From Xanthomonas sp. AM6 (lineage in GTDB: Bacteria; Pseudomonadota; Gammaproteobacteria; Xanthomonadales; Xanthomonadaceae), in the NCBI RefSeq assembly GCF_025665335.1, contig NZ_CP106869.1:3994501-4058500 (forward strand): a DNA stretch of 64,000 nucleotides. Reading direction: 5' to 3'. The notes beneath the pieces were generated by a model. The model was not told where the DNA came from and made no database searches. It was given only the letters and a program-made list of their open reading frames with translations. The position numbers and the translations under genes were made by a program. Shown here in pieces: positions 10,467 to 35,667 of this stretch; positions within the stretch are counted from its first letter, which is position 1; each line of letters opens with the position of its first letter.

Positions 10467-10504
10467 CGCGGCATTATGCGCCACCGCGTCAGCGGCTCGC
10501 CCTC

Positions 10505-10573
10505 GTAGGAGCGGCTTCAGCCGCGACGGGCGCCACGGCGATGCCTGTCGTGGCTGAAGCGGCTCCCGCAGGA
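10505..10573. repeat. REP-like inverted pair (GTAGGAGCGGCTTCAGCC core)
   Basis: A GTAGGAGCGGCTTCAGCCGC unit at 10505 is followed by its inverted partner from about 10547 (GTCGTGGCTGAAGCGGCTCC), making a long imperfect hairpin between pncB and the glycosidase gene. The same core recurs at 20828, 20994, 22885, 23015, 23138, 46098, 61009 and 62702. Such extragenic palindromes are common in xanthomonads and pseudomonads; here the element could act as a transcript boundary between two minus-strand genes. Confidence 0.85.
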
Positions 10574-10577
10574 AGCG

Positions 10578-11573
10578 TCAGCGCGCGGCGCCACGCGCCA
10601 GCACCGCCTGCGCCGGCTTGTGCTGCACGGTGAAATCGCTGTCGTGCGCGCCGCCCGCGTCCGGATCGGTGTACCAGCACCACAGCGCGATGCCGGCGAT
10701 GCGCCGTTCGCCGAGCACGCGCCGCCAGTCCTGCAGCACCTGCGCCTGCAAGGCGGTGTCCACCGCGGCGCTGCGCTGCTCGGGACTTTCCCAGGGCGCG
10801 GCCAGGCTGCCGCGCGCCGAGCGCAGCCCCAGTTCCGCCACCCACACCGGACGCCCGCTGCGCGCGCCTAGCGCCTGCACCCGCTCGGCCGCCGCGCGCA
10901 TCTGCGCCAGCCGCTGCGCCGGCGACGACGACAGCGCCGGGTACAGGCTGGTGCCGACGAAGTCGAAGCGGTCCCAGTAGCCGAAGCGCTCGGCCTGTTC
11001 CAGGCCGTCGGCCACGTAGCCGAGCGGGCCGCGGTAGGCCTCGCGTACCGCCGCCACCAGCGCCGGCCACTGCGGCGCGTCCTGCAGGCCGCGCAATTCG
11101 GTGCCGACGATCAAGGCCTCTGCCCGCTCTTCGGCGGCGACCTGCGCCAGCTGCAGCAGCGCGCGCCGGTAGGCGGCGAACCAGGCCGCGCGATCGGCCG
11201 GCGCGGCGTCGCCGGCCCAATGGCCCGGGATCCACAGGTGCACCTTCAGCACCGGCTGCAGGCCGGCCGCGCGCATCTGCCGCAGCCCGGCGCGCACCTG
11301 TTCCACGCTGCTGTCGCTGCCCAGCACCGGATCGTCGGACTGCGGCGTGGCCTGCCAGACGAAGGCGACCAGCAGCGCGCGTTCGGCGCCGGCGGCAGCC
11401 AGCTGCCGCAGCGAGCGCTGCGCCGCGGCGCTACCCCACGGCGCCTGCGCCGACACCTTGACGTTGGCGCCCATCCACGGCGTAGATGCCGGCGCGGGCG
11501 TGGCCGCGCCGCAGCCGCACGCGCTCATCGCGAACAGCAGGCCGGCCAGCCATCTCACGGCAATCGACGCCAT
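10578..11573 (-). CDS. Exported GH-A clan glycoside hydrolase (GH113-like)
   Basis: 331 residues. An N-terminal signal sequence with an imperfect lipobox (LLFAMSAC) suggests a periplasmic or lipid-anchored protein. The rest reads as a TIM barrel: the first strand has WMGANVKV, the probable acid/base is Glu159 in IVGTEL at the end of strand 4, and the probable nucleophile is Glu247 in PVWVAELG near strand 7. These are the paired glutamates of clan GH-A; overall it is closest in feel to GH113 endo-mannanase-like enzymes, though the substrate is not readable. Its start overlaps the end of the upstream membrane-protein gene by 19 bp. In this operon it may trim or release the polymer, the role BcsZ plays for cellulose. 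Confidence 0.75.
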   Translation of the reverse strand: MASIAVRWLAGLLFAMSACGCGAATPAPASTPWMGANVKVSAQAPWGSAAAQRSLRQLAAAGAERALLVAFVWQATPQSDDPVLGSDSSVEQVRAGLRQMRAAGLQPVLKVHLWIPGHWAGDAAPADRAAWFAAYRRALLQLAQVAAEERAEALIVGTELRGLQDAPQWPALVAAVREAYRGPLGYVADGLEQAERFGYWDRFDFVGTSLYPALSSSPAQRLAQMRAAAERVQALGARSGRPVWVAELGLRSARGSLAAPWESPEQRSAAVDTALQAQVLQDWRRVLGERRIAGIALWCWYTDPDAGGAHDSDFTVQHKPAQAVLARGAAR

Positions 11574-13069
11574 ACCCGGTAGGTCCCTTGTCGGTAGACC
11601 AGACTGTAGCCCGGCAGGCCCTGCTGCCACAGCTGCGGCAGGCGCCGGTTGACGCCGTCCAGGGCACCGGCCCGGCTCGCCGGGTCGGCCACCACCACCT
11701 GCGCCGGCATCTGCCGCGGGTCGTCCAGCGCGCGCTTGTAGCGCGGGTCGAACGGCAGGACGAGGCCTTGCGCGTCGCCACGCGCCACGATCACCGCGTA
11801 GCCGGCGCGATCGTCGAGCAGGGTCGGCAGCCGCGCTTCGGCCAGCCAGGCGCCCAGCCGCGCTTCGTCCGGATGCCGCGGCGCCACCGGCGCGCGCAGC
11901 GCCGCGGCCCAGTCGCGGGTGGTCGAGGCCGCGGTTCGGGCGATGACCCAGCCGCTGGCGATCGCGCCGAGCAGCAGCAGCGCCAATGCCAGCCAACGCA
12001 GCTCGCGGCGCACGTCGCCCAGCACCAGCGCCGTCGGCACCACCATCAGCGCCAGGAAATCCAGCGGCTGCGCGCTGAAGCGCGCCCACGCCGCCAGCGT
12101 GCCGGCGCCGATCACGGTGACGGTCGCCACCAGCACGCAGCGCCAGGTGCTGGTCAGGCGCGTGCGCCGCACCAGCAACAGCAGCGGCGTGGTGACCAGG
12201 CCGGCCAACGCCAGGTACAGCGGCGGCCACCACGGCCGCGCCAGCGCCTGCTGCAGCCACGGCTGCAGCGCGGCCTGCGCATAGCTGCCGCGGAACGCCG
12301 AATGTTGATCGCGCACGAACAGCAGCGCGTCGCCGAAGAACAGGTAGTTCAGGTACATCCAGGTCGCGACCGCGAACAGGAACGGCAGGTAGCAGACCAG
12401 GTAGAACGACAGCGGCGCGCGCCGCAGCATGCCCTGCGGCGCGATCAGGCCCAGCCACGGCGCCATCGCCACGGCCAGGAAGCAGGCGCGCTCGTCGACG
12501 AAGAACAGCAGGCACAGGCCCAGCGCCAGGCGCAGGTAGGCGAAGGCTTCCGGATCGCCGCGCAGATGGCGCAGCGCGCGGCAGGTCAGGTAGAACACCA
12601 GCAGGCCCAGGCCCTGGTTGTTGCCCGACAGCGTCGGCCACAGGAAGAACGGCTGCAGCACCAGCGCCGCGCACAGGCCCCAGGCCCAGGCGCGGCCCAG
12701 GCCGGCGGCGAGATCGCGCCACAGCAGCGTCACCAGCGCCGCGCCGGCAAGCACGTCCGCCAGGTACGGCAGCAACGGCGTGGACAGCCCCGGCACGCTG
12801 CCGATCAACAGGCCCAGGTACAGCGAGGCCTGCGCGTAGAGGAAACCGAGATACTCGGTGCGGAAGCCGGCCGCGTCGCGCAACAGCAACAGCTTGGCGT
12901 ACTGCGCCATCGCGTCGTCGCTCATGTAGCCGTGCGCGAGCAGCCGGTGGCACAGCAGCGCCAGCAGCGCGGCGGTGGCCACGAACACCGGCACGCCGCG
13001 GTAGCGGCGCGGCGTCTCAATCGTCGAGTGCGGCGCGGCGCTCTTCGGCCATGTGCTTGCTGATGCCAT
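11555..13069 (-). CDS. Polytopic membrane protein, GT-C-like
   Basis: 504 residues with about ten or more hydrophobic segments followed by a soluble C-terminal part of some 130 residues (from about TTRDWAAALRAP). After the first membrane helix it has MSDDAMAQYA (Asp51-Asp52), the position and type of the acidic pair found in GT-C glycosyltransferases that use lipid-linked sugar donors. That suggests transfer of a sugar on the periplasmic face, but no family name can be assigned with confidence. The start overlaps the preceding glycosyltransferase gene by 53 bp; a later start is possible. It is tightly coupled to the glycosidase downstream, so it belongs to the same polysaccharide operon. Confidence 0.7.
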   Translation of the reverse strand: MASASTWPKSAAPHSTIETPRRYRGVPVFVATAALLALLCHRLLAHGYMSDDAMAQYAKLLLLRDAAGFRTEYLGFLYAQASLYLGLLIGSVPGLSTPLLPYLADVLAGAALVTLLWRDLAAGLGRAWAWGLCAALVLQPFFLWPTLSGNNQGLGLLVFYLTCRALRHLRGDPEAFAYLRLALGLCLLFFVDERACFLAVAMAPWLGLIAPQGMLRRAPLSFYLVCYLPFLFAVATWMYLNYLFFGDALLFVRDQHSAFRGSYAQAALQPWLQQALARPWWPPLYLALAGLVTTPLLLLVRRTRLTSTWRCVLVATVTVIGAGTLAAWARFSAQPLDFLALMVVPTALVLGDVRRELRWLALALLLLGAIASGWVIARTAASTTRDWAAALRAPVAPRHPDEARLGAWLAEARLPTLLDDRAGYAVIVARGDAQGLVLPFDPRYKRALDDPRQMPAQVVVADPASRAGALDGVNRRLPQLWQQGLPGYSLVYRQGTYRVWRRLP

Positions 13070-14951
13070 GGGTGGTCTTTTCCCAGTAGAACGGATTGCG
13101 GATGAGCTGCCAAAGCCCCTTGTAGGCGGCGATCGATTGCAGCAGCCAGTACAGCGGCACGGTCAGCGCGTACGGCGCAAGCCGGAAGTAGTCGCGCTTG
13201 AACGCGGCCACCAGTGTCATGTAGATCAGGAAGCCGTTGCCCAGCAGCAGGTTGAGCAGGCTCAGGTACAGCAGCGCGGGCGGGAACACCGGATCGAACG
13301 CGCGCGTGCCGGTCAGCGCCCAGACGCCGTAGACCAGCCACATCGGCGGCGCGATCAAGGCGGTGAAGAAGGTGCCGCCGACGAAGAACTGGAAGCCCCA
13401 GAAGCCGCGGAAACCGACCGAGCGGTACAGCTGCAGCGGATCGCGCATGTGCACCAGCCAGGTCTGCATGTAGCCCTTGAGCCAGCGCGAGCGCTGCCGG
13501 ATCCAGTTGGGGACGCTGACGTTGGCTTCCTCGAACGTGGTCGAGTTGACCACGCTGACCCGGTAGCCCTGCTGGGTCAGGCGCACCCCCAGGTCGGCGT
13601 CCTCGGTGACGTTGTACGGGTCCCAGGCGTGGACCTTGCGCAGGATGTCCAGGCGGAAATGGTTGGAGGTGCCGCCCAGCGGGATCGGGATGCGCAGGGT
13701 TTCCAGCGCCGGCAGGTAGAAGTCGAACCACAGCGTGTATTCCAGCGTGAACATGCGCGTGAGCCAGTTCTCGTCGGCGTTGTAGTAGTTCAGCCGCGCC
13801 TGGATGCAGGCCACGTCGGCCGGCGACTTGCGGAACGCGGCGACCGCACGCTTGAGCTGGTCCGGCTCCGGCTTGTCCTCGGCGTCGTAGATGGTGAGCA
13901 TCTGCCCGCGCGCGAACTGCAGCGCGTAGTTGCACGCCTTCGGCTTGGTCTTGGGCTGCGACGGCGGCACCCGGATGATCTCGAAGAACGCCTCCAGGCC
14001 CAGCGCCTTGGCCGCCTCGATGGTCTCGATGTCGTCGGCCTCCAGCACCAGCTTCACGTCCAGCTTGGAGGTCGGGTAGTCGAGCCGGCGCAAGGCGTTG
14101 GCAAGGATCGGCAGCACGTCCGGTTCCTTGTACATCGGCACCAGCACGGTGTAGACCGGCAGGTCCTCGTCGTCGAGCGCGGCCACTTCCGCATCGGTGA
14201 CCTTGATGTCGATGCGGCGGCGCGCGCCCAGCCAGGCCAGCGTGAACTTGAGCAGGAACGTCGCCATGAAGGCGATACCGATCACGCCGTTGATCGCGAC
14301 CAGCGTCGGCACCGGCCAGATCGCCAGCGCCAGCAGCAACAGCGCCGCCAGCGTGCACAGCGACCCCACCTGCCTGCGCGTGACCACCTGCTTGGCCGAA
14401 TGCTCAGGCGCATGCTCGGCGAGCAGGTTCAGCGCGTCGTGGGTGAGCTGCGCATCGGCCTGCTGCTGCAGGCCCCACACGATGTCGAACTTGGAGGTGC
14501 CGACGAAGCGCACGTCCGCGCCGTACAGGTTGCGCGCCCAGGCGAAGGTCTCCGGGCCGGGGTCGGCCACCGCCAGCACCAGCCGGCCCTCTTCGCGGCG
14601 CCATGGCAGCACCAGGCGCTGCGCGTACTCGGCCAGCCGCTGCGGCTCGAACAGCGCCGGGTCGATCGGCTGCTGCATCAGGTTGACGAAGTTCAATCCG
14701 AAATGCGCGGACAGCACCGTATAGAAACGCAGCGCGGTGACCCCGCGCTGCGCCAGCACCACGTCGCCCAGGCGCGAACGCCAACGCGCCTGCAGCGCCA
14801 GCGCGTCCTGCAGCTGCGCCGCGTCGATGACCCCGGCCTCGACCAGCGCGGTGCCGATCGGGGTCTGCCAGCCGCGCGGCTCGGGCACGCTGCCGAGCGG
14901 GCCGATCGCGTCGCCAGTGGCGCTTGCCGCAGCGCCGTTCACCGCCGCCAC
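13017..14951 (-). CDS. Processive GT2 polysaccharide synthase with MshEN-like N-terminus (NfrB-like)
   Basis: About 644 residues. Residues 25-165 resemble the MshEN/GSPII_E N-terminal fold: PIGTALVEAGVIDAAQL, then RSRLGDVVLAQRG, then VNLMQQPIDPALFEP and VLPWRREEGRLVLAVADP. MshEN domains often bind c-di-GMP. Two membrane helices follow (about 197-240), then a GT2 domain with the complete processive motif set: EADD 304-307, DAED 356-359, TED 449-451 and RQRSRW 485-490, then three or four C-terminal helices. E. coli NfrB combines the same two modules and is a c-di-GMP-controlled exopolysaccharide synthase. Start is uncertain: GTG codons at 14951 and 14942 lie 2 and 11 nt after the upstream stop. 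First enzyme of a four-gene operon. Confidence 0.8.
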   Translation of the reverse strand: MAAVNGAAASATGDAIGPLGSVPEPRGWQTPIGTALVEAGVIDAAQLQDALALQARWRSRLGDVVLAQRGVTALRFYTVLSAHFGLNFVNLMQQPIDPALFEPQRLAEYAQRLVLPWRREEGRLVLAVADPGPETFAWARNLYGADVRFVGTSKFDIVWGLQQQADAQLTHDALNLLAEHAPEHSAKQVVTRRQVGSLCTLAALLLLALAIWPVPTLVAINGVIGIAFMATFLLKFTLAWLGARRRIDIKVTDAEVAALDDEDLPVYTVLVPMYKEPDVLPILANALRRLDYPTSKLDVKLVLEADDIETIEAAKALGLEAFFEIIRVPPSQPKTKPKACNYALQFARGQMLTIYDAEDKPEPDQLKRAVAAFRKSPADVACIQARLNYYNADENWLTRMFTLEYTLWFDFYLPALETLRIPIPLGGTSNHFRLDILRKVHAWDPYNVTEDADLGVRLTQQGYRVSVVNSTTFEEANVSVPNWIRQRSRWLKGYMQTWLVHMRDPLQLYRSVGFRGFWGFQFFVGGTFFTALIAPPMWLVYGVWALTGTRAFDPVFPPALLYLSLLNLLLGNGFLIYMTLVAAFKRDYFRLAPYALTVPLYWLLQSIAAYKGLWQLIRNPFYWEKTTHGISKHMAEERRAALDD

Positions 14952-14953
14952 CG

Positions 14954-15859
14954 CTAGAACCGCCACCAGGCGGCCACGAACGGGCCGCCGGCGCCGCCGG
15001 TGTTGCGCCCGGCCACCGGCTGCTGGTAGCCGAGCTGCACCTGGGTGCCGCCGGGCAGCGTGTGCAGCAGCGAGGCCTGCAGCTTGGTCAGGTCGTAGTT
15101 GTTGCCGCGGATCGGGGTGCCGGGCGCATAGACCGGATTGGGCCCGTTGCCGTTGCCCAGGCCCTGGATCACGTTGAGTTCGCCGATCAGCATCCAGCGC
15201 GGCGCCAATGCCAGGCCGCTGCTGATGTCCAGCCGCGCCTCGTCGGCGGAATCGCCGCCGCGCAGGCGCACCGCCGCGCCGAGGTCCACGTAGCCGTCGC
15301 GGCTGCCGGCCCGGTAGCCGCGGCCGACGCTGTAGCGCAGCTCGGCGCCGTAGTCGCCCTGCCCCAGCGCCGGGCGGTCGCGGTCGTCGGCGCCCTGCCG
15401 GCCGTAGCCGGGGAGCAGCGCCAGCACCTGCACCGCGCCCTGCCAGGGGCCGTCGCGGCCATCCGGGTCCAGGCGGTAGCGCAGGCCGATTTCCTGGTCG
15501 GCCCAGCCGGTCGTGTGCTGGTTGCCGTAGCCGCTGTCGTTGCGATAGCCGACCTTGCTGAAATAGAAGTTGCCGACCATGGTCAGGTCGGCGCTCAGCC
15601 CGTACTCGGCATAGAGGTTCAGCTGGTCCTGGCGGCTGCGCCCGGCATCGGGGAAATTCTGGCTCTGGCCGTGGCTGTTGTAGACCGCGCCGCCGTCGCT
15701 GTGGCTGGCCTTGAGGATCGCCAGCGCGGCGCCCTCGTCCTGTACCCAGGCGCCGGCGAAGCACGGTCCGGCCGTTACCGCGGCCAGGCCCAGGGCCAGT
15801 GCCGACAGCGCGCGTGCGCGCCGGCCCGGCCGCGGCCGCACGCAACCAGCATTCGCCAT
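14954..15859 (-). CDS. Outer-membrane beta-barrel protein of the exopolysaccharide operon
   Basis: 301 residues from the ATG at 15859; the frame stays open to 15922. The basic N-terminus plus hydrophobic stretch ends in a signal-peptide site (AGPCFAGA). The mature protein is full of alternating aromatic strands (LNLYAEYGL, MVGNFYFSKVG, EIGLRYRLD, YGAELRYSVG) and ends in WWRF, the C-terminal aromatic expected of an outer-membrane barrel. I cannot assign a named family. Being the first gene of an operon with a processive synthase, it is the natural candidate for the export pore, although no TPR region like that of BcsC or NfrA is present. The stop is only 2 nt from the first possible synthase start. 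Confidence 0.7.
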   Translation of the reverse strand: MANAGCVRPRPGRRARALSALALGLAAVTAGPCFAGAWVQDEGAALAILKASHSDGGAVYNSHGQSQNFPDAGRSRQDQLNLYAEYGLSADLTMVGNFYFSKVGYRNDSGYGNQHTTGWADQEIGLRYRLDPDGRDGPWQGAVQVLALLPGYGRQGADDRDRPALGQGDYGAELRYSVGRGYRAGSRDGYVDLGAAVRLRGGDSADEARLDISSGLALAPRWMLIGELNVIQGLGNGNGPNPVYAPGTPIRGNNYDLTKLQASLLHTLPGGTQVQLGYQQPVAGRNTGGAGGPFVAAWWRF

Positions 15860-16010
15860 GGAAAGGGATGCCGCACATGCGTGCGACCACGAGCGCGCAC
15901 GCTCGCCGTAGGGCTGGTTCATCGCTGTTGTTTCCTGGTGGGGGCCCCTGGAACAGGGAGCAGGAAACGATCCCGGTTCCGGAATCGCGACTGGAACGTA
16001 GCACCTTTTC

Positions 16011-16030
16011 TGCGTGCTTCACATCACGCA
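16011..16030. promoter_or_regulatory. Possible Clp/CRP-type operator
   Basis: A perfect palindrome with 6-bp arms, TGCGTG-N8-CACGCA, lies about 155 bp upstream of the outer-membrane protein start. Read on the CRP grid it is CGTGC-N6-TCACG against the consensus TGTGA-N6-TCACA: 3/5 in one half, 4/5 in the other. Xanthomonas Clp is a CRP homologue released from DNA by c-di-GMP. Site quality is moderate and the assignment is inference. Confidence 0.35.
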
Positions 16031-16093: not shown

Positions 16094-16939
16094 TCAGCCG
16101 GGACGGCGCCAGCACAGCCTGGCGAAGGTCACCCAGGCATGCAGCCAGATCACCGCCCACACCGCCGCGCGCACCGGCGCGCTGCGCGCGGGCGCCTCGA
16201 ACTTGCGGAAATAGCGCCACAGCCCGCGGTGCTTGTGCCACTCCACGAACCATGGCCGCTTGCGGCTGGACACCCCGCGCACGTGCAGCACGCGCAGGCC
16301 GTTGGCCACCGCCACCGTGGCCCCGGCCTGGCGCGCGCGGCGGCACAGGTCCAGGTCCTCGGCATGCAGCCGGTAGCCGGCGTCCCAGCCGCCGATGCGG
16401 TCGAACAGCGCGCGCGGCAACAGCATCAGCGCGCCGGAGATCGCGTCCACGCGCTGCAGCGGCTGCGCCGGATCGGCCGCAACCGCCAGCCGCGAGCCGG
16501 CCAGCGGATGCCGCAGCATCGCCGCGAAGTCCGGATCGCGGCGGCGCACCGCCGCGTCGGCGCGGCCGTGCTCGTCCACCTGCTCCACGCCGAGCAGCGC
16601 ATCGCCGAGCGCGGCGACCTGCGCGCGCAGCAGCGCCAGCGTGTCGGCCTCCACCAGCAGGTCCGGATTGACGAAGGCCAGCCACGGCGCATCGCTGGCC
16701 GCCGCGCCCTGGTTGCAGGCGGTGGCGAAGCCGGGATTGTCGGGATTGGCGATGAAGCGCACCCGCCGGTCCTCCAGCGCGTGGCGCTGCACGATCGCCA
16801 GGGTGTCGTCGCGCGAGGCGTTGTCGACCACGCGGATCTGCGCGACCTGCGCCGCCGCGCGCAGCCGCTGCAGGCAGGCGTCGATGGTGCTGCCGCTCTC
16901 GTAGGTCACCACCACCACGGCCATCTGCTGTTCGCTCAT
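16094..16939 (-). CDS. Family 2 glycosyltransferase (rhamnosyltransferase-like)
   Basis: 281 residues from the ATG at 16939; the longer frame upstream looks non-coding. Typical non-processive GT2: VVVVTYESGSTIDACL, VVDNASRDDT, NPGFATACNQG, and the donor-binding FVNPDLLVEAD; a later HAEDLDLCRRARQAG segment supplies the catalytic acid. No membrane helices except a weak hydrophobic segment near the C-terminus (VWAVIWLHAWVTFARLC). Such enzymes add single sugars to O-antigen or other surface glycans. It is 155 bp from the translated part of the exopolysaccharide operon on the same strand, separated by the likely promoter region, so membership in that pathway is possible but not shown. Confidence 0.8.
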   Translation of the reverse strand: MSEQQMAVVVVTYESGSTIDACLQRLRAAAQVAQIRVVDNASRDDTLAIVQRHALEDRRVRFIANPDNPGFATACNQGAAASDAPWLAFVNPDLLVEADTLALLRAQVAALGDALLGVEQVDEHGRADAAVRRRDPDFAAMLRHPLAGSRLAVAADPAQPLQRVDAISGALMLLPRALFDRIGGWDAGYRLHAEDLDLCRRARQAGATVAVANGLRVLHVRGVSSRKRPWFVEWHKHRGLWRYFRKFEAPARSAPVRAAVWAVIWLHAWVTFARLCWRRPG

Positions 16940-33936: not shown

Positions 33937-35667
33937 TCAGGTTTCCTCCGTCACGCGCAGCACTTCCTCGATCGTGGTCTGGCCGCTGAGCGCCTTGCCC
34001 AGGCCGTCCTCGTACATCGTGCGCATGCCGGCCTCGCGCGCCAGCTGTTCGATCTCGCCCATGCCGGCGTGGCGCATCACCGCGCGGCGCAGCGCGTCGT
34101 TCATCACCAGGAATTCCATGATCGTGGTGCGGCCCAGGTAGCCGGTGGGCGCGATCGCCGAGGGCCGCGGGCGGAACAGGAAGATCTCGCCCTCGGGTTG
34201 CAGTCGGCGCAGTTCGAACTTCTCGATCTCCTCCGGCGAGGCGGCATAGCGCTCGGCATGCGTCGGCTCCAGCCGCCGCACCAGGCGCTGGGCGAGGATG
34301 CCGTTGATGGTGGAGGTCAGCAGGTAGTCCTCCACGCCCATGTCGAGCAGGCGGGTGATGCCGCCGGCGGCGTTGTTGGTGTGCAGCGTGGACAGCACCA
34401 GGTGGCCGGTCAGCGCCGACTGGATCGCGATGCGCGCGGTTTCCAGGTCGCGCATTTCGCCGATCATGATTATGTCCGGGTCCTGGCGCACGATGCTGCG
34501 CAGCGCGTGCGAGAAATCCAGCCCGATCTGCGGCTTGGCCTGGATCTGGTTGATGCCCTCGATCTGGTATTCGACCGGGTCCTCGACGGTGATGATCTTG
34601 ACGTCGGCGGTGTTGAGCTGGCTCAGCGCGGTGTACAGCGTGGTGGTCTTGCCCGAGCCGGTGGGACCGGTGACCAGCAGGATGCCGTGCGGCTGCTCCA
34701 GCACCTTGCGGAACTGCGGCAGGAACGCATCGGTGAAGCCGAGCCGGTGGAAGTCGAACACCACCGTCTCGCGGTCGAGCAGGCGCATCACCACGCTCTC
34801 GCCGTGCGCGGTGGGCACGGTGCTCACGCGCAGGTCCAGTTCCTTGCCCTGCACGCGCAGCATGATGCGCCCGTCCTGCGGCAGGCGGCGTTCGGCGATG
34901 TTGAGCTTGGCCATGATCTTGACCCGGCTGATCACCGCCGCGGTCAGGTTCGCCGGCGGGCTCTCGCCGTCGATCAGCACGCCGTCGACGCGGTAGCGCA
35001 CCTTCAGCCGGTTCTCGAACGGTTCGATGTGGATGTCCGAGGCGCGCAGTTCCACCGCGCGCTGGATCACCAGATTCACCAGCCGGATCACAGGCGCCTC
35101 GGAGGCCAGGTCGCGCAGGTGCTCGATGTCGTCGGTGGCCGTGCTGTCGCCGTCGGCGGTCTCCACGATCGCGCCCATCGCGCTGCGGCCCTGGCCGAAC
35201 CAGCGCTCGATCAGGTCGTCGATCTCCGAGCGCAGGCCGACCCGCGGCAGCACCTGCAGGCCGGTGGCCAGGCGCACCGCGTCGGCGGCGTAAGCCTCGT
35301 GCGGATCGGACATCCACAGTTCCAGCGTGCCGTCGCGCTCGCTCAGCGGGCACACGTGGAACTGCTTGAGGAAGCGCAGCGACAGCGGCTGCGCCTCGGG
35401 CAGGCTCTCCGGCGCGGTGGCCGGCAGTTGCTTGGCGTCGAGCAACGGCAGGCCCAGCACGTCGGCGCTGACCTCGGCATGGTCGCGTTCGGAGACCAGG
35501 CCCAGGCGCGCCAGCAGCGACAGCAGGCCGCCGCCGGATTCGCGCTGCAGCTGGCGCGCGCGCAGCAGGTCGCCTTCCTTGAGCCGGCCCTTGGCCAGCA
35601 ACGCAGCGACGATCCGCGCCTCGGGCGTATCGGCGGCGGCAGCAGTGTCCTTGACGAGCGCGTTCAC
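33937..35667 (-). CDS. xpsE: XpsE/GspE, type II secretion ATPase
   Basis: 576 residues from a GTG at 35667, supported by GGAGGG five nt upstream. N-terminal MshEN-like domain (about 15-110: AALLAKGRLKEGDLLRARQLQ, LLSLLARLGLVSERD), then the hexameric ATPase: Walker A GPTGSGKTTT near residue 332, Asp box ITVEDPVEYQI, Walker B DIIMIGEMRD, His box LVLSTLHTNNA. The region after RLVRRLEP that normally carries the two CxxC zinc-binding pairs has no cysteines, as has been reported for Xanthomonas XpsE. It powers pseudopilus assembly. First gene of the xps operon. Confidence 0.97.
   Translation of the reverse strand: MNALVKDTAAAADTPEARIVAALLAKGRLKEGDLLRARQLQRESGGGLLSLLARLGLVSERDHAEVSADVLGLPLLDAKQLPATAPESLPEAQPLSLRFLKQFHVCPLSERDGTLELWMSDPHEAYAADAVRLATGLQVLPRVGLRSEIDDLIERWFGQGRSAMGAIVETADGDSTATDDIEHLRDLASEAPVIRLVNLVIQRAVELRASDIHIEPFENRLKVRYRVDGVLIDGESPPANLTAAVISRVKIMAKLNIAERRLPQDGRIMLRVQGKELDLRVSTVPTAHGESVVMRLLDRETVVFDFHRLGFTDAFLPQFRKVLEQPHGILLVTGPTGSGKTTTLYTALSQLNTADVKIITVEDPVEYQIEGINQIQAKPQIGLDFSHALRSIVRQDPDIIMIGEMRDLETARIAIQSALTGHLVLSTLHTNNAAGGITRLLDMGVEDYLLTSTINGILAQRLVRRLEPTHAERYAASPEEIEKFELRRLQPEGEIFLFRPRPSAIAPTGYLGRTTIMEFLVMNDALRRAVMRHAGMGEIEQLAREAGMRTMYEDGLGKALSGQTTIEEVLRVTEET

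Follow-up and report, generated by a model that had tools for sequence, protein, structure and literature searches.

A four-gene operon in Xanthomonas sp. AM6

We analysed a 64,000-nucleotide stretch of the Xanthomonas sp. AM6 genome (contig NZ_CP106869.1, positions 3,994,501 to 4,058,500; hereafter, the window), in which four minus-strand genes make up xagABCD, a known Xanthomonas biofilm-polysaccharide operon. The first gene, xagA (15922-14954), encodes a 322-aa outer-membrane beta-barrel of about 12 strands with the COG4313-channel fold. It is followed by xagB (14951-13017; 644 aa), for a processive glycosyltransferase family 2 (GT2) synthase with an MshEN domain at its N-terminus (PF13632, PF13641, PF00535, PF05157), by xagC (13069-11555; 504 aa), for a polytopic membrane protein of GT-C fold with a soluble C-terminal part, and by xagD (11573-10578; 331 aa), for an exported glycosidase of glycoside hydrolase family 113 (GH113), possibly a lipoprotein, with catalytic residues Glu159 and Glu247. 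A scripted check gave a 2-nt gap at the first junction and overlaps of 53 bp and 19 bp at the next two, in agreement with the layout of barrel, GT2, GT-C-like protein and glycosidase in a preliminary description of this DNA. The XagA barrel and the XagC fold are backed by predicted structures and fold searches. The preliminary description had extended the locus to 16030; the gene upstream of xagA ends at 16094, so that interval takes in DNA upstream of the operon.

The xagABC or xagABCD genes have been described as a Xanthomonas biofilm-polysaccharide operon (PMC3609779, PMC3528676, PMC3633832). The X. citri homologues are XAC3522-XAC3525 (PMC3609779), and XAC3516 is a GH8 enzyme (PMC8245568). 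In the window, the series runs from a GH8 cellulase gene (3715-2396) through bcsB, bcsA, a 139-aa open reading frame (ORF), bcsD and pncB to the xagD end of the operon; the five genes between GH8 and xag match the spacing of the X. citri tags. Named Xanthomonas loci that we retrieved have the same gene order, with XagB about 75% identical on the arboricola/euvesicatoria side. For Ferriphaselus R-1, where the published cluster reads cyc2, bcsB, xagB, xagC, xagD, the series that we recovered begins with a 457-aa ORF containing a single CxxCH, continues with a BcsB-like gene and ends in xagB, xagC and xagD. From synteny with X. citri, the named Xanthomonas loci and the Ferriphaselus cluster, we conclude that the operon is xagABCD. 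The preliminary description correctly recognized a synthase-dependent exopolysaccharide system, but its author knew of no described system with exactly this set; the set is that of xagABCD (PMC3609779, PMC3633832), with xagBCD-like genes also in PMC4643136.

A GC-rich inverted repeat (gcttcagcc...ggctgaagc) lies at 10490-10570, between xagD and pncB; we take it to be of a kind scattered in Xanthomonas genomes.

The synthase and its MshEN domain

The GT2 motifs of XagB were located by script at EADD 304-307, DAED 356-359, TED 449-451 and QRSRW 486-490. D307, D356, E450, D451, Q486, R489 and W490 do not vary across 45 aligned sequences, the window among them, so the D-DxD-TED-QxRW set reported earlier is indeed present. 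Profile searches also bear out the MshEN-like N-terminus: it scores above the curated cut-offs of NF053729, the NCBI motif model for cyclic di-guanosine monophosphate (c-di-GMP; 41.8 bits against 38), and of PF05157 (41.7 bits against 23.1). NF053729 matches 43 of the 45 aligned XagB sequences at E 0.01. Among PDB chains, full-length XagB matches PilF (3.8e-06) and MshE (7e-4); phmmer with a 150-aa N-terminal piece matched no PDB chain.

The putative ligand motif (14703-14861, minus strand; 53 residues, 31-83; PIG..Q / RLG..H) was scored against the tandem 24-residue MshEN motif of PMC5013675. It keeps 10 of 14 canonical positions and 5 of 8 strict ones, and none of 200 shuffled versions of the protein exceeded 9. 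The complete tandem motif of a ligand-competent MshEN is thus absent from XagB; of the preserved ligand motif that the preliminary description had proposed to look for, ten positions are kept and four are substituted. All 31 Xanthomonas sequences keep 5 of 8 strict positions; the window is one of them, and some are duplicates (for example L060/L096, L066/L124 and L070/L098). The score is 10-13 of 14 in Mariprofundus and most gammaproteobacterial relatives, and 14 in bacterium HR37. The gapless count underestimates domains with another spacer: an NfrB-like protein scores 8 of 14 ungapped and 12 when a 6-residue spacer is allowed. From the sequence, we predict that Xanthomonas XagB probably binds c-di-GMP, more weakly than does MshE.

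In 35 of 121 scanned sources, the xag-like cluster codes for a receiver protein that has a GGDEF-like domain, in most cases 1.1-1.6 kb past xagB (for example L135 12358-13341, L173 3102-4082 and L128 12354-13379). No recognisable GGDEF motif is present in 30 of these 35 proteins, and both domains were matched by Pfam in 6 of the 7 gap ORFs searched. MshEN motifs are most eroded in such clusters, with a mean of 6.2 of 14 over 32 sequences; free motif scans of other ORFs reach 5-8 and are not a like-for-like control for this mean. Separately, a second MshEN domain (55.8 bits) lies on the minus strand of the window at about 35182-35457, on a 585-aa open frame that perhaps encodes a type II secretion or pilus ATPase.

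XagD, XagC and the polymer

XagD is a GH113 enzyme (PF22612, 3.2e-30, 105.9 bits against a cut-off of 27) with both catalytic glutamates kept in 70 of 70 aligned sequences, in keeping with the exported glycosidase of the preliminary description. MSAC near the end of its signal peptide is presumably a lipobox, hence the possible lipoprotein. Seven of its nine PDB matches are beta-1,4-mannanases (E 2.1e-09 or better), the other two being at chance level. Against mannanase 4cd6, 77 of 272 residues are identical (28%; E 3e-12); 22 polar or aromatic residues are kept in at least 95% of the XagD family, 21 of them fall inside the 4cd6 alignment, and 18 of those are identical in the mannanase. A hydrolase encoded in a synthase operon usually acts on that operon's own polymer, as do BcsZ, PgaB, PelA and AlgL. 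Because XagD keeps both glutamates and its solved relatives are beta-1,4-mannanases, its sequence suggests that the Xag polymer may be of beta-mannan type, perhaps also serving as substrate of the biofilm-dispersing mannanase ManA. Published work describes the Xag polymer as uncharacterised and a beta-1,4-mannanase as acting in biofilm dispersal, and poses both the ManA substrate and the Xag polymer as questions (PMC3528676).

We also scanned neighbouring genes for precursor synthesis, covering 65 of 181 neighbour ORFs, hand-picked from 15 loci, and considering the first 25 of 86 families. Among the families listed, BcsB occurred 10 times, and PF01050 (mannose-6-phosphate isomerase) and PF00483 (nucleotidyl transferase) once each. 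Mannose-gene enrichment near xag was not shown in this partial scan, which neither supports nor excludes mannose.

The earlier assignment of XagC to the GT-C superfamily stands on its predicted fold. Active GT-C glycosyltransferases have a conserved acid in the first periplasmic loop. In XagC an acid at 51/52 (DD in the window) is present in 27 of 40 aligned sequences and missing in 13, the segment itself being missing in the four X. campestris-group sequences of the alignment; the most conserved acid seen is D471 (38 of 40), in the C-terminal part. The SDD motif therefore does not hold as a family feature, and the lipid-linked decoration proposed in the preliminary description is unsupported. 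Catalysis by XagC is possible in some members, but the alignment does not establish it for the family at large.

Distribution and gene order

Within the genus, XagB, XagC and XagD occur in the same 15 of 20 genomes (AM6 included), all with a near full-length xagA. In each of the other 14, A-B-C-D lies beside pncB, and bcsA was seen in 12 of the 14 retrieved stretches. Two xagBCD-less genomes, G006 and G001, retain remnants of xagA only, at the same site between pncB and the upstream glycosyltransferase gene (L071 8102-8257 and L072 8514-8594, respectively). These are scars of operon loss.

In wider sampling, the synthase is matched at E 1e-40 or better in 7 of 369 genomes of the class sample (AM6 included) and in 89 of 398 of the phylum sample. 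In the latter, xagC was found in 20 and xagD in 25 genomes at E 1e-5; every one of the 20 genomes with xagC also has the synthase, and the same 20 are among the 25 with xagD. The synthase is thus more widespread than the four-gene unit, although single-sequence searches miss distant XagC and XagD. The idea that the four genes travel as a unit holds in the genus; outside it, these counts speak against a strict unit.

A scan of named genomes took the best 80 of 565 relatives, 59 of which had enough flanking sequence. All 59 loci have xagC, and 37 have A, C and D: 22 with a BcsB-like gene, and 15, all Xanthomonas, without. The remainder comprise BcsB-like with C (12), BcsB-like with A and C (8), BcsB-like with C and D (1) and C alone (1). 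Of the 44 loci outside Xanthomonas, 43 carry a BcsB-like gene. Held-out profiles, trained without the test loci on members chosen from earlier iterative matches, recovered A at 34, C at 46 and D at 17 of 65 test loci, with a single match per locus and at most 6 kb from xagB.

The order A-B-C-D of Xanthomonas recurs behind a BcsB-like gene in Pseudomonas saliphila (L107) and Gluconacetobacter diazotrophicus (L110). Gammaproteobacterial metagenome-assembled genomes and Mariprofundus have BcsB-like, B-C-D-A. At many alphaproteobacterial loci the order is BcsB-like, B, C, a regulator gene and A, with D convergent where present. Given the BcsB-like gene in these orders, the Xanthomonas operon looks like a version without it. 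BcsB matches in the AM6 genome were limited to the cellulose BcsB and one below the cut-off, left of the window.

Individual loci depart from this pattern. In Xanthomonas sp. AmX2 a BcsB-like gene lies directly after pncB (L096 13596-16952), where most other Xanthomonas loci have bcsA. In X. phaseoli pv. phaseoli (L099 6670-7861, 13570-15949) xagA seems split between two overlapping ORFs that are in different frames, and pncB between two pieces lying apart; X. fuscans 4834-R is also reported to have a broken xagA. The xagB of X. arboricola CFBP 7645, seen as two overlapping ORFs (L171 8731-10877), is broken or misassembled.

A separate NfrBA-like operon

About 14 kb from xagD, left of the window, lies an NfrBA-like operon (C1 3982552-3990710 of the AM6 genome; L180 2053-10211). 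It encodes a BcsB-like protein (1062 aa), an NfrB homologue with a C-terminal c-di-GMP motif, and a tetratricopeptide-repeat protein with NfrA_C. The NfrB homologue scores 633 bits to the NfrB equivalog, below its cut-off of 1170, and 1150 bits to PRK15489, over the cut-off. Its c-di-GMP motif scores 72.8 bits and keeps 12 of 14 positions with the 6-residue spacer, with Pro for the second Arg. The neighbourhood therefore encodes three GT2 synthases with c-di-GMP-type domains, namely Nfr-like, Bcs (PilZ) and Xag (MshEN).

We considered whether the BcsB-like gene of this operon might be a hidden fifth xag gene of Xanthomonas, and set this aside: it sits with the nfrB- and nfrA-like genes and is present in xag-less G006. 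It is more likely Nfr-associated.

Proposed mechanism and alternatives

We think it likely that the locus is xagABCD acting through GT2 polymerisation, MshEN control, assistance by XagC, trimming by XagD and exit through XagA. The data show the identity of the genes, their predicted folds, the conserved catalytic residues and their joint inheritance; from these we infer c-di-GMP control via MshEN, the parts played by XagA and XagC, and a beta-1,4-mannan-like polymer. At the inner membrane XagB would polymerise a nucleotide sugar and extrude the resulting chain, its N-terminal MshEN domain letting c-di-GMP act on the enzyme post-translationally. On the periplasmic side XagC may assist or modify the chain, which XagD would trim, and XagA would serve as the outer-membrane exit channel.

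Several observations weigh against this reading. The identity with published XagA-D rests on synteny, the named Xanthomonas loci and Ferriphaselus. Five of the 20 genus genomes are without xagB, xagC and xagD, and in the wider samples xagC and xagD are much rarer than the synthase. XagA outside Xanthomonas is 16-39% identical (16-19% in Mariprofundus members), save for 49% in P. saliphila, and is assigned there by profiles and position. Single xagA and xagB deletions left biofilm and virulence of wild-type X. oryzae pv. oryzicola unchanged. Finally, XagB has P, R, F and H at the equivalents of MshE Arg9, Gly47, Leu54 and Gln61, and MshE R9A lost binding.

The same four positions are substituted in the Xanthomonas sequences inspected, and all 31 (some genomes being counted twice) keep the 5 of 8 strict positions. 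This could mean that the domain survives as a structural remnant and has lost c-di-GMP binding, with control transcriptional only, via Clp. The MshEN domain of X. campestris pv. campestris GspE lost binding by changes in key residues, and the erosion in clusters with a receiver plus GGDEF-like gene points the same way. We regard such a remnant as possible, though somewhat doubtful: the XagB domain is still over the NCBI c-di-GMP cut-off, three of the four Gly and the equivalents of Q32 and R38 are kept, and the same-genome NfrB homologue retains its 12 positions despite the Pro substitution. Moreover, E. coli NfrB binds at 1 uM, and Mariprofundus and most gammaproteobacterial relatives have the motif scores of 10-13 given above. 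NfrB, which is c-di-GMP-controlled and a proposed user of UDP-N-acetylmannosamine (UDP-ManNAc), also fuses MshEN to a processive GT2, and one might regard xag as an nfrBA variant making a ManNAc-based polymer. We reject this identity as highly improbable. The NfrB equivalog scores XagB at 36.8 bits against its cut-off of 1170 and matches residues 29-187, the MshEN part, only; the domain order is reversed between the two proteins, XagA matches the COG4313 channel, and the NfrB homologue and NfrA_C protein are encoded together in their own operon nearby, so that xag is not Nfr. The likeness to NfrB drawn in the preliminary description thus applies to the MshEN region and not beyond it.

For the polymer itself, the odds are even that it is not a mannan and that the GH113 fold of XagD has another specificity. 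XagD is 28% identical to 4cd6, GT2 profile scores point to no single donor, and the partial neighbour scan gave no mannose-gene enrichment; on the other side stand the 18 of 21 shared family-invariant residues and a phosphomannose isomerase gene that adjoins a related stalk cluster (PMC8250860). We consider it unlikely that XagC is an active GT-C enzyme decorating the chain from an undecaprenyl-linked donor, as first modelled. Against it, the acid at 51/52 is present in only 27 of 40 sequences, the segment is missing in the four X. campestris-group members, and the operon itself is without a flippase or polyprenyl-phosphate glycosyltransferase.

Regulation and implications

In X. oryzae pv. 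oryzicola, the extra biofilm of an rpfG mutant requires xagA and xagB, and in X. campestris Clp represses xag (xagA), the repression being relieved by c-di-GMP. Upstream of xagA in the window is a weak Clp/CRP-like palindrome (16013-16028, minus strand) with 3 mismatches to TGTGA-N6-TCACA; as good a site arose in 169 of 500 shuffles, so that it is not significant in the window alone. A site with 1 mismatch occurs in 5 of 28 compared sequences, two of which (L066, L124) are one organism.

Operons such as xagABC have been predicted to encode a c-di-GMP receptor too (PMC4624772). Tentatively, and with more doubt than confidence, we propose that XagB makes, and XagD trims, a beta-1,4-mannan-type polymer that secreted ManA cuts, and that the MshEN domain of XagB supplies the missing c-di-GMP receptor acting after translation, in a two-tier control of the operon with Clp. 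If so, one polymer would answer both questions posed in PMC3528676, the ManA substrate and the Xag product. The anatomy of the operon offers a testable candidate answer on the polymer, through the mannanase-type enzyme that it encodes, and another on the receptor, through MshEN on the synthase. Alphaproteobacteria and stalk-forming iron oxidisers have related clusters, most of them including a BcsB-like partner, so what is learnt in one group would bear on the others.

Comparison with known systems

A literature search found no paper joining XagB with MshEN, most subscription literature lying outside it. Nor did the whole words xag, mannan, exopolysaccharide and c-di-GMP occur together in any paper, a search that xagA- or xagB-only papers and most subscription papers escape. 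Further sources behind the analysis are PMC3542200, PMC3826837 and PMC5003339.

NfrBA of E. coli (PMC8669469, PMC8669472) resembles Xag in fusing MshEN to a processive GT2, but its MshEN is C-terminal, its pore is NfrA, its operon, nfrBA-ybcH, is without GT-C or GH genes, and its profile leaves the GT2 part of XagB unmatched. The Bcs cellulose synthase shares the GT2, an operon glycosidase and, with most non-Xanthomonas xag clusters, a BcsB-like partner; it differs in having PilZ rather than MshEN, a BcsC pore and a GH8 enzyme, and here the bcs operon is a separate neighbour.

The sfz/sfb stalk clusters of iron oxidisers (PMC8250860, PMC4643136) contain XagB, XagC and XagD homologues, but have a BcsB-like gene upstream and the order B-C-D-A. 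In Mariprofundus xagD is followed by an XagA-like gene, apparently in the position of the 'unknown' sfz5; this is seen in M. ferrooxydans PV-1 (L118 12292-14307), where Sfz3 also resembles XagC and Pfam places Sfz4 in GH113. Sfz4 is called GH10 in those sources, and the T2SS-like (type II secretion system-like) domain described there is not named MshEN in PMC8250860.

With published xagABCD, the operon shares gene set, order, neighbourhood and the link to biofilm polysaccharide, and we find no difference in gene content; the MshEN domain and the families of XagA, XagC and XagD are unnamed in the partial text of PMC3609779, PMC3528676 and PMC3633832. What is new relative to the known xag operon is the c-di-GMP-type sensor domain on the synthase and the mannan-cutting type of its enzyme.

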